DNA from: Lagopus muta
Lineage: Eukaryota; Chordata; Aves; Galliformes; Phasianidae
Length of the DNA stretch: 64,000 bases
Reading direction: 5' to 3'
Assembly: GCF_023343835.1 (NCBI RefSeq)
Contig: NC_064437.1
Location: 9,203,001-9,267,000, forward strand
Shown here: piece after piece, positions 38,901-63,990 of the stretch
Numbering within the stretch: position 1 is the stretch's first letter
Layout: each line of letters starts with the position of its first letter
Position numbers and translations under genes: made by a program
Notes under the pieces: generated by a model
Told to the model about the DNA's origin: nothing
What the model saw: only the letters and a program-made list of their open reading frames with translations
The model's database searches: none

Positions 38901-41900
38901 GGGACTGCTCCAAGTCACAGGGTGCCGTGGGCCTGGCCGGGGTCCTGCTGGTGGCCCTCTCTGTGGCCTCTGGCTTAGGGCTCTGCTCACTGCTCGGTAT
39001 CTCCTTCAATGCAGCCACCACGCAGGTAGATGCTGGGGGAAGAGCTGTGGGTCCCCTTGTCCCAAGTGGTGGCTGTGTCCCCATGCTGACACTGGCTGCT
39101 CTCTGGCAGGTGCTGCCCTTCCTGGCCCTTGGCATTGGTGTGGATGACATGTTCCTCCTGGCTCATGCCTTCACTGAGACCAGCCAGCACATCCCCTTCA
39201 AGGTGAGCACTCAGCCCAGCCCTGGGATGCCCCACTGTTCCTCACAGTCCCTTGTCACTGTGTCCCTCTGTGTCCTGCAGGAGCGGACAGGAGAGTGCTT
39301 GCGGCGCACGGGGACCAGCGTGGCTCTCACCTCCATCAGCAACATGATTGCCTTCTTCATGGCTGCCCTGGTGCCCATCCCCGCCCTGCGTGCCTTCTCA
39401 CTCCAGGTATGCTCTGCACCCACTGGGGAGTGGTGACCCATGCTGTGGGGTGGGAAGAGCCTGGTTCTGACATGTCCCTCTGCCCGCAGGCAGCAGTGGT
39501 GGTGGTGTTCAACTTTGCCATGGTGCTGTTCGTCTTCCCTGCCATACTGAGCCTGGACCTGTATCGGCGGGAGAAGCGCCGCCTCGACATCCTCTGCTGC
39601 TTCTACAGGTAGCAGATATCTGCCAGGGATGGACCCTCATGTCCCACCCAAAACAGCCCCATGGGCAGCCCTGCTCATTTCCTCACCACCTCCTCCTTCC
39701 TCTTCCCACAGCCCTTGCTCCTCACGGGTCATCCAGATCCAACCCCAGGAGTTGGCCGATGCCAACGACAACCATGCCTCCCACCCGTCCCCCTACGGCC
39801 ACCCCGGCGTGGCCACCAGCACTCAGATCACCACCACCGTGCAGGCCTTCACCCAGTGCGACCCCTCGGGCCACCACATCGTCACCGTCCTGCCACCCAC
39901 CTCCCAGGTGTGCACCTCGCCCGCCGTGCTGCTGCCGCCTGCCGACCCGTTGGGCTCGCAGGTCTTCACCCCCTCCAGCTCCACGCGGGACCTGCTGGCC
40001 CAGCTGGACGAGGCTAAGGGTGGGCGTGAGTGCGTGCCGCTGCCCTTGTGCCGCTGGAGCCTCTCCGACTTTGCCCGTGAGAAGTATGCCCCGCTCCTGC
40101 TGCGGACCCAGACCAAGGTGAAGTTGGGTGGGGGTGTGAGGTTGTGTGATGCAGCATGGTAGAGTGAGACGTTGGTTGACCTGTTGTCCCCACAGGTGGT
40201 GGTGGTGGTCCTCTTCTTGGCACTGTTGGGACTGAGCCTCTACGGCACCACCATGGTGCATGACGGACTCTACCTGACAGACATTGTGCCACGGGACACC
40301 AAGGCTCACGCCTTCATCTCAGCCCAGTTCAAGTATTTCTCCTTCTACAACATGTTCATCGTCACCAAGGGTGGCTTCCACTACCCGGGTGCCCAGGCCG
40401 CCCTTCTCAGCCTGCACCAAGCCTTCAGCACTGTCAAGTACGTGGTGCGTGAGGGCAACCATGACCTGCCCAAGATGTGGCTCCACTACTTCCAGGACTG
40501 GCTGCGAGGTAAGGGGCATCCCCAGAGCTTCCACCCCAACCTTTATGCCAAGAAATACCTTCCCAAATGCATTGCATCCTCTGGAGCCCCAGTGGGTGGG
40601 AGGATCCCATGGTGTCCCCATGGTGCCCCCAGGGATGCTCACCCCATGCTTTGTCCCTAGGGCTCCAGGCCACCTTCGACAGGGACTGGCAAGCCGGCCG
40701 CATCACCCATGATAGCTATCGCAATGGCTCTGAGGACGGGGCACTGGCCTACAAGCTCCTCATCCAGACTGGCAACAAGAAGGAGCCATTCAACTTCAAC
40801 CAGGTGCTTGGGGATAGAGCTGGGGATGGAGCAGTGGGGCTGGGGATGGAGCAGCGGGGCTGGGGATGGAGCAGTGGGGCTGTATCCTGAGCTGTGCCCA
40901 CCACTCTTCTAACCACCATCCCTGCCACCCCCATAGTTGACCACACGGCGGTTGGTGGATGAGAATGGCATCATCCCCCCAGACACCTTCTACATCTGCC
41001 TGACGGTGTGGGCCAGCAACGACCCCCTGGGCTTCGCTGCCTCTCAGGCCAACTTCTACCCACCGCCGCCTGAGTGGATCCATGACAAGTACGACACTAC
41101 GGGCGAGAACCTGCGAAGTGAGTGAGCGCCTAGCGAGGTCCCCGTGGCCCCAAGCATCCCCTGGCATGGGGACGCTGCTCCCTGCCCCTTGAGAAACCCC
41201 CAGCATCCCTCATCGCATGGGCATCCCGTGATGGAGATGTATCCTGCATCTTCTTGCTCTGCACTCTCTTTGCCCTACACCCCAAGCATCACTCTGTACC
41301 CCCAACTCCTTGTCCCTAGCCTTGTGATACTCATAGAATCATAGAGTGGAATCATTAAGGTTGGAAAAGACCTTAAAGGTCGTTCAGTCCAACTGTCCAC
41401 CTACCACCAATATTGCCCACTGACCATGTCCCTCAGTGCCACATCTCTATGGTTCTTGAACACCTGCAGGGACAGTGACCCCACCACCTGCCTGGGCAAT
41501 GCCCAGCTACTCGAGTGTGCCCAGGCACATATCTTGACTGCATTCATGTGAAGTTGATTTCCTCCACGCTACCCTATGCTCTCCTCCTCAGTCCCAGCAG
41601 CCCAGCCACTGGAGTTTGCCCAGTTCCCCTTCTACCTGAGCGGGCTGCGTCGCACAGCCGACTTCGTTGAGGCAATTGAGAGCGTGCGAGCCATCTGCCA
41701 GGAGGCGGCCCAGCGCCATGGCGTGCTGAGCTACCCCAGCGGCTACCCCTTCCTCTTCTGGGAGCAATACATCGGCCTGCGCCACTGGTTCCTGTTGGCC
41801 ATCAGCATCCTGCTGGCCTGCACCTTTCTCGTCTGCGCCCTGCTGCTGCTCAACCCCTGGACGGCCGGTATCATCGTGAGTGTGTGCCCCGGGTACCTGC

Positions 41901-51951: not shown

Positions 51952-52629
51952 ATGGCTGAGCAGCCATCCCTAGAACTGGCAGCATCCACGCGGGTGATGG
52001 CTGTAGACGGCACTGAAGCCCCTCATCCCCGAGCCATCCACCGTGGCTCCCACCCCACAGCCCCAACACGGGGCCCAGAGGAAGGCAAAGCCCCACCGCT
52101 GCTCTCCCGCCGCAGCTCCATGCTCAGCACCCTGCCAGGCCCCCCAGGCAGCCGCCGCAGCTCTCTGGGGGCAGCTCCAGGGGGAAAGAGGCCCTCCATG
52201 GGACCCTGGCTCCTCCACAGCCGTGTGAGTTTCTCAGGGCTCCCACTTTTCCAACCCATTCCAGAAACCCACCTGGAAAACACGTACAGGATGGGGCCGG
52301 AGGAAGGCTGCAGGTTCAACGCAGGGCGGGTGCAGCGGGTGCTGGAGGGAGTCCTAGCCAGGGTGCTGGGGGGCACAGCCTACAGCCCCCAGGGCAGCAC
52401 GGTGCTGGTGCAGAGCCTGGCTGAGCTGCTGCGGGGCCGGGCAAAGGAGGTGGTGCCACCCCGCTACAAGCTGGTGTGCCAGGTGCTGCTGGGCCAGCAC
52501 AGCCAGCAGAGCATGCTGGTGGCCAGCCAGGCACTTTGGGACCCTGAAAGCGATAGCTTTGCCTCTGCTTCTTTCTACAATGCCTCACTCTTTGCTGTTG
52601 CTATAGTGCATGGGGTTTACTTTGAGTAA
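51952..52629 (+). CDS. DYNLT4: DYNLT4 (TCTEX1D4), Tctex-type dynein light chain 4
   Basis: A Tctex1-family light chain linked to dynein and to protein phosphatase 1. The single coding exon gives 225 aa (human about 221 aa). The start at 51952 (MAEQPSLEL) is chosen because a splice-acceptor-like sequence lies just before it; an in-frame upstream ATG at 51886 would add 22 residues. Residues 1-100 are low complexity with basophilic phosphosite-like RRSSM, RRSSL and KRPSM. RVSF at 91-94 is the PP1-docking motif known from the human protein. Residues about 115-225 form the Tctex domain, with PPRYKLVCQVLLG, ALWDPESDSFASASFYN and the C-terminal SLFAVAIVHGVYFE. Human matches recalled include RVSFSGLPL and the terminal FAVATVHGLYCE. 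Confidence 0.93.
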   Translation: MAEQPSLELAASTRVMAVDGTEAPHPRAIHRGSHPTAPTRGPEEGKAPPLLSRRSSMLSTLPGPPGSRRSSLGAAPGGKRPSMGPWLLHSRVSFSGLPLFQPIPETHLENTYRMGPEEGCRFNAGRVQRVLEGVLARVLGGTAYSPQGSTVLVQSLAELLRGRAKEVVPPRYKLVCQVLLGQHSQQSMLVASQALWDPESDSFASASFYNASLFAVAIVHGVYFE

Positions 52630-53927: not shown

Positions 53928-59409
<5,482 letters not shown>

Positions 59410-61880: not shown

Positions 61881-62250
61881 GATGTAAGGGGCGGAGGGGC
61901 GGCACAGCGCTACCGGAGGGCTCGCAGTGTTAGGAGCCCGGGGAGAGGGGACGGAGCAGAGGAACCGAAGGCCGAGCACCGCTGGGCCGGGCCCGGGGGC
62001 GGTCGGGTTCCGGCGGGGCCACCCCGCGGCGAGGCGGAGCCGGGCGGCGGCGGTGCAGCGGCGGGGAGCGCGGAGCGGCCCCGGGAGCATGGGGCGGGCG
62101 GCGGCAGGTGAGGGCGGCGGCTGCGGGGCGGGGGGACCGAGAACCGGGAGGGAGCAGCGCGACGGGGCAGGGACGGGGGTGCGGGGACAGAACGCGGTTA
62201 CGGGCGGAGGGACCGCTCCCCGTGCTGATCCCGCAATGGGGTGCCCATCT
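61880..62250. promoter_or_regulatory. CpG-rich promoter of the LRR membrane-protein gene
   Basis: A GC-rich, CG-rich block surrounds the 19-base first coding exon. There is no TATA box at a convincing distance. The 5' UTR start cannot be fixed from sequence. Confidence 0.55.
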
Positions 62251-63412
62251 GCTGTGCCCTCCCACAGGCACCGTGCCCCTGTTATGGGGCGGCCTCCTGC
62301 TCGCTGCCAGCCTCGCCCTAGAGCCGGCACCGCAGAGTTGCAACTGCACCCATCCCCTGGACTTCCAGGCGTTCCGCACAGCTCCGCTCGCCGAGAGCTG
62401 CTGCCTCAACTTCACTGGATCCAATGTCACCCACCTGGACTGGGGAGCGCTGGTAGCGGTGCGAGGGCTGCGCCAGCTCTACTTCTCACACTGCAGCATC
62501 ACAGCCATCAGCAACGCCCAGGGAGTCCCCCCGGCCTTGGAGGTCTTGCACTTAAGTCACAACCAGTTGGAGAGCCTCCCCAGAGGCTTTCTGGAAGATG
62601 CCCCTAATTTGAAGGTCCTCTATCTGGATGGGAACCAGCTCCAGGAGCTGCCCACATCCTTCCTGAAAGCCTCCACCCAGCTCCAGGAACTCCACCTGGG
62701 GTTCAACGCACTGACCTCCCTCCCTCCCACCCTTCTGCATCCATCCCTGCTGCAGCTGCAGCTCTCCAACAACAGCTGGGAGTGCAGCTGTGCTTTGCTG
62801 GATGCCCTGCAGGGCACCCCCAGCCTGCCCGCCCAGCTCACCTGCCATACACCGGAGAGGCACCGTGGTGCAGAGCTGCAGAGCATCCCACGGGACGAGC
62901 TGTGCCAGCAGCACCAAAGCCTCACCGCCCTCTTCATCTGCCTGCCTCCCCTCCTCATCCTCGCAGCCATCACCTGCTGCTTCTGCAGGAGGAAAAGGAA
63001 AACCAATTACAGCCTTGGGAGCAGCCACACCTCCCCAACAGAAAGGGGCAACGTGCCCGTGTGCCCCGAGCCGCACCGCTACGTCCCCTATGAGCCAACC
63101 AGTGCCCCCTCCAAGAGCGAGGGGAAGGTGCTGCGGGGCAGCCGGGTGCTGCTGCAGCCCCCCGAGGAGAGCAGCAGGGACCTCTATGAGGAGGTGGAGA
63201 TCCAGGTGGGATCCCATGTTCCAACCTACGATGAGCAGCGGGACAGCCCTGAGACAGAGGGGGACACAGTGAGTGTCACCGACGTGCTGAAGGACTCCGC
63301 TGACCGCGAGAAGATCTACATGAACCAGTCGACCAACTATTACAACCTGGTGCCTGGCATCGAGCTGGAGGACTCGGACAACCTGGAGTATGAGAACATC
63401 GAGCTACACTGA
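62089..63412 (+). CDS. LRR type I membrane protein with tyrosine-rich tail, unassigned
   Basis: Two coding exons: 62089-62107 (MGRAAA plus one base, GTGAGG donor) and 62268-63412 (CCCACAG acceptor); 387 aa. A signal peptide (about 1-24, VPLLWGGLLLAASLA) precedes a Cys-containing N-cap, four or five leucine-rich repeats (about 70-172, e.g. LEVLHLSHNQLESLP, LKVLYLDGNQLQELP), a WECSCALLDAL C-cap with further Cys to about 219, and one membrane span (about 224-246) followed by basic RRKRK. Sequons are at Asn32, 54, 59 and 174. The 140-residue tail has nine tyrosines: YEEV (313), YMNQ (357), YYNL (364), YENI (381, within LEYENI). This suits a surface receptor that recruits SH2 proteins such as Grb2. 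Architecture recalls LRRC25 (MAPA), but I see no clear sequence match and give no symbol. The gene-level call is firm; identity is not. Confidence 0.85.
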
Positions 63413-63990
63413 TGGGTAGCTGGGCTGGGATTTGGGATCTGGCTGGAACATACTGGTGGCTGTGGGGATACACAGACCAGTCTGCCATTTCTTGCACTGG
63501 CTGTTTGCAGAGCTGCACCCCCAAATTGCCACCCCTCCTGCTGCATTCCCCTACATGTGCCCCATGCTTGCACTGGGCAGGGCACAGGGGGTTTTCTGTG
63601 GGCTGATGGCATACTTGGACACAAGGCAAGGAGAGGAGGTGGGGCTGTCCCATCTGTACAACAGCACTGTGTGCACCAGACCCTCTGAGCAGGTTCTCTG
63701 TCGTCTCTGCATCCAGCTGCATCCAGCACAGCTCTGCTGCTTCCCAGCCTACACAGAATGGGACCCAGGGACAAGAAATGAGATCTGCTTACTGAGTCCC
63801 ACATGGGCAGCCTGGAACAGCCCTGCCTGCTCCACCAGCACACCCTGCCGTGCCCACTGCATTGTACACATGCACACACGCATGTGTGAGCACTGGGCAA
63901 AGGTGGGCTCGACTGGGGCCACGATAGCAAAGTGCTCATGGGGTGCAGCCTTCCCTGCCCAATGCAAAATAAATCATTGTACTCCTGGCA
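63413..63990 (+). other. LRR-gene 3' UTR with AATAAA
   Basis: Noncoding sequence from the TGA stop to a canonical AATAAA at 63968-63973, followed by a CAGTGTGGCTG GT-rich stretch at the window edge. A TGCACACACGCATGTGTG alternating patch occurs near 63870. The transcript probably ends at about 63990. Confidence 0.75.

Follow-up and report, generated by a model that had tools for sequence, protein, structure and literature searches.

A leucine-rich repeat receptor gene between PLK3 and BEST4 in Lagopus muta, with tail tyrosines strongly constrained from sharks to birds

Several described systems approach, in design, the receptor analysed here. In excerpts of PMC6107485, LRRC25 (MAPA) is a protein with leucine-rich repeats (LRRs), one membrane span and tyrosine motifs that include YENM and a 'closet' ITIM-in-ITAM, and excerpts of PMC3528668 describe a fish thrombocyte receptor, G6f-like (G6fL), that carries an ITAM together with a YxN motif, an ITAM being defined there as two YxxL boxes 6-12 residues apart. 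A further element is the YXXQ consensus through which gp130 recruits STAT3 (PMC4007646, excerpt). Here we report a genuine cell-surface receptor gene in a 64,000-nt stretch of Lagopus muta DNA (the window), whose 387-aa product is a type I membrane protein in which a compact, capped LRR ectodomain is joined through one span to a tail rich in tyrosines.

The gene lies on the plus strand, with a first coding exon at 62089..62107 (MGRAAA and the first base of codon 7, the start of the signal peptide), a GT-AG intron of 160 bases (62108..62267) and a second coding exon that holds the remainder of the protein and the stop codon (62268..63412), the latter evidenced by 150 related proteins. Splicing 62089-62107 to 62268-63412 yields exactly 387 aa, and the stork orthologue (P0004) begins with MGRAAAG, the same start as exon 1. 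The row closest to the window, P0002, has apparent intron sequence at its start and so is not proof of a spliced transcript. To judge by its sequence, the AATAAA at 63968..63973 (plus strand) is likely to be the polyadenylation signal. The 387-aa product, LRR ectodomain and single span proposed in the first-pass annotation are borne out by this exon join, by a Pfam LRR_8 match (6.9e-18) and by hydropathy. The ectodomain (residues ~29-222; 62333..62914, plus strand) comprises a CxC..CC N-cap, LRRs and a C-terminal cap (C179, C181, C199, C219), and eight of its cysteines are at least 98% conserved in an alignment of 151 rows. The span (residues ~225-247; 62921..62989, plus strand), placed by hydropathy, has CCFCRRKRK at its inner end and basic residues immediately inside the membrane, ahead of a tail of ~140 residues. 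At least two cysteines occur at the membrane border (residues 238-250) in 145 of 149 rows, and CCFCRRKRK is a candidate palmitoylation site. The AlphaFold2 model, built from an 89-row alignment, has a mean pLDDT of 74.1 and a pTM of 0.58, with a confident LRR core (block means 85-98 for exon-2 residues 21-170, 62-78 for 171-220) and a tail mostly below 50, except for a weak helix spanning 336-357 in exon-2 numbering (protein residues ~343-364).

Gene order in Lagopus muta runs PLK3 (minus), the LRR receptor (plus), BEST4 (plus) and then a minus-strand gene region. PLK3, the divergent upstream neighbour, occupies approximately 53931..59409 on the minus strand (limits taken from open frames), and its kinase and polo-box exons (Pkinase 4.8e-10, POLO_box 4.5e-13) confirm the adjacency to PLK3 noted earlier. 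Its first-exon frame gave 0 matches against PDB sequences and two frames of the PLK3 region had no Pfam match, the identity being settled by other exons. The minus-strand region beyond BEST4 contains two SNORD38 and one SNORA35, and we take it to be RPS8, the host gene of SNORD38; an Rfam scan of the 64,000-nt window returned 0 matches. On the plus strand, a Patched/sterol-sensing domain (39095-39415) and a Tctex-1 domain (52327-52599) belong to genes that we take to be PTCH2-like and DYNLT4-like, an arrangement presumably matching the mammalian gene order around PLK3. Elsewhere there are only hints of the PLK3-BEST4 position, in orthologue rows named bestrophin or best4; these are from goose, two lizards and catshark (P0003, P0038, P0057, P0085), and the goose row continues into bestrophin sequence. 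Such rows represent either fusions made in annotation or transcripts that read through into BEST4 downstream.

A protein database search with the product, in which the 7994 candidates sharing most words were scored, found 213 homologues at E<=1e-3. Among the best 120 of these, which are listed, one row is 93% identical, named birds are 65-77%, turtles 46-50% and squamates 39-48% identical, and crocodilians, amphibians, coelacanth, sharks, rays, sturgeon, gar, bowfin and teleosts are also present. A tail-only search with the turtle orthologue gave 97 matches and added lungfish, Xenopus and the chimaera Callorhinchus. On sequence similarity, the orthologue group spans birds, crocodilians, turtles, squamates, amphibians, lungfish, coelacanth, and ray-finned and cartilaginous fishes. 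Its members are called 'uncharacterized' or si:ch211-106k21.5 in the database, or bear clashing names such as SLITRK, chondroadherin-like, vasorin or toll-like receptor. The first-pass annotation could assign the protein to no named family with confidence; the database searches identify an orthologue group, si:ch211-106k21.5. No paper was found for this name or for five LOC names in open-licence full texts, a collection without subscription journals or supplementary tables, and literature searches on LRR/tyrosine-motif receptors lost in mammals and on PLK3/BEST4 synteny returned none on this gene, as judged by title or start of abstract.

A tree built from 47 rows out of the 151, with a midpoint root only, supports groups of birds, birds plus alligator, turtles, squamates, frogs, cartilaginous fishes and ray-finned fishes. 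It departs from the species relationships in placing cartilaginous fishes inside the lobe-finned part (81/81) and coelacanth outside it, and in not uniting the amphibians, but broadly it follows the species and is consistent with vertical descent. The Alligator row (P0061) is fast-evolving, with an end branch of 0.8, its tyrosines nonetheless kept, and the end branch of the window bird, 0.27, is long for a bird. The Gavialis row (P0090), a model of 285 aa without the span and first tail block, could reflect either an error in gene prediction or a gene in decay. When the Lagopus muta genome itself was searched (108 of 220 candidates scored), the other matches listed were confined to the LRR part and span, reaching no further than residue 250 of a query of 380 aa. 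With the tail alone as query, the same genome yielded nothing else at E <0.1. As far as this search scores, the gene appears to be single-copy, with a unique tail.

No mammal name occurs among the best 120 of the 213 product matches or among all 97 tail-search matches. For each of the 24 rows without a species name the nearest named row is non-mammalian (70-93% identity), and three rows without a readable species (P0110, P0251, P0252) match fish and frog rows best (76-88%). The database does contain mammals, as the LRRC25 matches demonstrate. The absence concerns word-based searches of a protein database, not mammalian genomes, and suggests, without proving, that the gene was lost in mammals. 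A search with an LRRC25 query listed the best 120 of 125 matches, which are from placental mammals wherever a species is shown and are mostly named LRRC25, the rest being hypothetical or unnamed. Among the matches listed, LRRC25 is thus seen only in placental mammals and the LRR receptor only in non-mammals, a mutual exclusion that is possibly coincidence.

The tail was compared across the 151 aligned rows, those gapped at a site being set aside for that site. Conservation is concentrated in two plus-strand blocks: residues 301-318 (63149..63202), containing RDLYEEVEI, and residues 341-387 (63269..63409), containing Y357, Y364, Y365, Y381 and a DSD at 375-377. Columns conserved to at least 97% number 7 of 18 in the first block, 16 of 47 in the second and 28 of 194 in the ectodomain, with 0 of 52 in residues 248-300 and 0 of 21 in residues 319-340. 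Tyr313 (YEEV; 63185..63187) is tyrosine in 146/149 rows and YEE[V/I] in 144/149, the rows without it being three bird models with no alignment at that position (P0030, P0037, P0059). Tyr357 (YMNQ; 63317..63319) is kept in 147/147 rows, Tyr364 and Tyr365 (YYNLVP; 63338..63343) in 146/146 each, and DSD in 145/145. Tyr381 (YENI; 63389..63391), the second half of a long-spaced ITAM-like pair, is kept in 142/145, the exceptions being two snakes and a goose model that is fused to bestrophin. In both snakes (P0060, P0063) Asn takes its place, so that half of the pair has been lost naturally. Five of the eight scored tail tyrosines of the window fall among the 23 of 138 columns conserved to at least 97% (hypergeometric p=0.003), and the remaining tail tyrosines vary (254 in 66, 278 in 84, 281 in 31 and 327 in 8 of 121 rows).

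Identity to the window over residues 341-387 is 91% in emu and 77-79% in turtle and gecko. Xenopus, lungfish, coelacanth, gar, teleost, white shark and Callorhinchus reach 61-79% over this block, against 36-45% in the ectodomain, and every one of 10 comparison rows has the block better conserved than the ectodomain. The loss of tail tyrosines in other birds that would have refuted the earlier reading is not seen for the tyrosines themselves: of 23 named bird rows scored at Y381, 22 keep it, and only the bestrophin-fused model does not. The alignment shows strong constraint on tail tyrosines and spacing from sharks to birds. Across the linker (63188-63316), the distance from Tyr313 to Tyr357 is 44 residues in the window bird and P0002; of the remaining rows scored, P0092 has 39 and all others have 51-75, over 145 rows in all; the linker was probably shortened recently in the window bird's lineage.

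All the motifs listed by the first-pass annotation are present in the window's protein: YEEV at Tyr313, YxN at 357, 364 and 381, and LEYENI at 379-384. That list did not include Tyr365, Y357xxQ, DSD 375-377, the cysteines at the membrane border or BEST4 as a neighbour. Its almost ITAM-spaced pair is also correct, with 13 residues between the YYNL and YENI boxes, and Y364xxL-x13-Y381xx[I/L/V] is present in 139/145 rows, the second box ending in V in 61 and in I in 54 of 115. Since the published gap is 6-12 residues, the pair is ITAM-like at most. A hydrophobic +3 residue is highly constant at three sites (Y364xxL 146/146, Y365xx[VILM] 146/146, Y381xx[ILV] 142/145). Y357xxQ is found in 129/147 rows; most of the exceptions are cartilaginous fishes, with YMNK/YMDK, and geckos, with YMNH. 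The three YxN motifs, all in the window, prove not to be a family feature: Y357xN occurs in 73/147 rows (among other birds, in only 3 of the 24 named rows that were scored), Y364xN in 88/146 and Y381xN in 87/145. The motif list of the first-pass annotation describes the window bird's own version, the ancient constraint lying in tyrosine position, hydrophobic +3 and spacing. A PDZ-binding C-terminus was considered and rejected, the last residue being variable (S, H, C, R, Q, T).

Our main reading, to which we give a probability of about one half, is that the protein is an ancient SH2-docking receptor of jawed vertebrates, phosphorylated by Src-family kinases, with a long-spaced ITAM-like pair and adaptor-like sites. 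The small capped LRR ectodomain would bind a ligand or partner, and clustering would lead Src-family kinases to phosphorylate the tail tyrosines, upon which Y364xxL-x13-Y381xx[I/V] could recruit a Syk-kind tandem-SH2 protein or two separate SH2 proteins. By their motifs, Y313 (YEEV) would serve Src-family docking, Y357 (YxxQ) STAT3-type docking and the YxN sites, where present, Grb2-type docking, in keeping with SH2 preferences for YEEV and YxN. Receptor and LAT-like scaffold would be combined in one chain, which the membrane-border cysteines might anchor in ordered membrane. The near-invariant tyrosines, the kept x13 spacing, the high conservation of the two tail blocks, the membrane-border cysteines, the precedents of G6fL and gp130, and a tail largely without confident structure in the AlphaFold2 model speak for this reading, and the earlier proposal of a receptor with a tyrosine-signalling tail gains support from the retention of the tyrosines across jawed vertebrates. 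The receptor may have an immune or blood-cell role. Against the reading stand the YxN tyrosine of G6fL, which was dispensable in a reporter assay (PMC3528668, excerpt), a 13-residue gap outside the ITAM range, Asn at Y381 in two snake rows and, for the YxxQ part, its loss in cartilaginous fishes and geckos. The invariant DSD and the weakly predicted helix at ~343-364 suggest constraint beyond tyrosine docking.

The main rival, which we consider rather unlikely, is that the tyrosines of the tail serve mainly in trafficking, as signals of a recycling adhesion or scavenger protein, YEEV, YYNL, YNLV and YENI/V being read as YxxPhi signals for clathrin adaptors and the DSD acidic cluster, with Ser376, as a CK2-type regulator. 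YxxPhi motifs would also fit sorting signals, and DSD admits the CK2 reading; moreover, the +3 hydrophobic is steadier than YxN, and DSD is present in every scored row. However, the conservation of the last block far exceeds a four-residue signal, several sites at fixed spacing are probably more than sorting requires, and YEEV with its flanking acidic residues resembles kinase/SH2 sites. Much less probable is an inhibitory ITIM receptor or plain LAT-like Grb2 scaffold, for which the window offers its three YxN motifs and a LEYENI that, as the first-pass annotation stated, fits the ITIM pattern. That pattern, [S/I/V/L]xYxx[I/V/L], occurs in only 28/144 rows, namely 22 named birds including the window, five unnamed rows nearest birds and P0062, nearest a lizard; it is absent from all 72 scored rows assigned to non-birds, and YxN is missing in 40-50% of rows per site. 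'ITIM' as a family feature, being almost confined to birds, and 'LAT-like' as a family trait were accordingly rejected; such a function could be, at most, an addition found largely in birds. That the receptor is the bird counterpart of LRRC25, which shares its design (PMC6107485, excerpt) and aligns by profile (hhalign) over N-cap and LRRs with a probability of 97% (N-cap alone 87.9%), is very improbable and was rejected as orthology, because the tail does not align (1.5%) and LRRC25 reaches at most 42.7 bits against the product in BLASTP (115 of 120 LRRC25 rows matching), while other LRR proteins encoded in the bird's own genome match the ectodomain better, with scores up to 73.2 bits (loci pre-chosen as good LRR matches), with nothing convincing found in the Lagopus muta genome by the LRRC25 row named lion (P0128; best E 0.08) and no overlap between the rows listed for the two groups.

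A bolder extension of the docking-receptor reading, tentative and on balance doubtful, is that jawed vertebrates ancestrally had an LRR immunoreceptor, represented by this gene and lost on the way to mammals, which combined in one chain a recognition-type LRR ectodomain, a long-spaced ITAM-like module, a YxxQ of STAT3 type and adaptor sites. If this is true, mammals do without such an immunoreceptor or cover its role with unrelated receptors such as LRRC25, and loss of the gene in fish, frog or chicken would reveal what mammals may have given up. A tail near-fixed since the shark-bird ancestor, in a gene without name, studied function or mammalian match found, marks a gap in vertebrate signalling, and the fixed Y-x-x-L-x13-Y-x-x-[I/V] provides a test case for longer spacing in ITAM-type signalling.

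Among known proteins, fish si:ch211-106k21.5 and the unnamed LOC orthologues are the same protein as the window's, with full-length similarity, both conserved tail blocks and the tail tyrosines kept. The nearest solved LRR folds in a Foldseek search are the ectodomains of GPIb-alpha, LRRTM2 and the Nogo receptor (2.9e-06 to 6.9e-06), a similarity that on the predicted model appears generic. LAT and other transmembrane adaptors also have membrane-border cysteines, and several SH2 docking tyrosines to which the tail tyrosines would correspond, but LAT has almost no ectodomain, whereas the LRR receptor has a folded LRR domain and inconstant YxN. LRRC25, named earlier as nearest in design, does share the layout of short LRR ectodomain, one span and several tail tyrosines, as far as the excerpts of its description go, but it is ~305 aa long, its tyrosines differ in order, tail homology is undetectable and the window's protein has no YENM. 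G6fL, in the excerpts describing it, also places an ITAM and a YxN site within one receptor chain in fish, but has Ig domains rather than LRRs outside the cell, and its tyrosines lie 12 apart (Y515, Y527) against 17 here.
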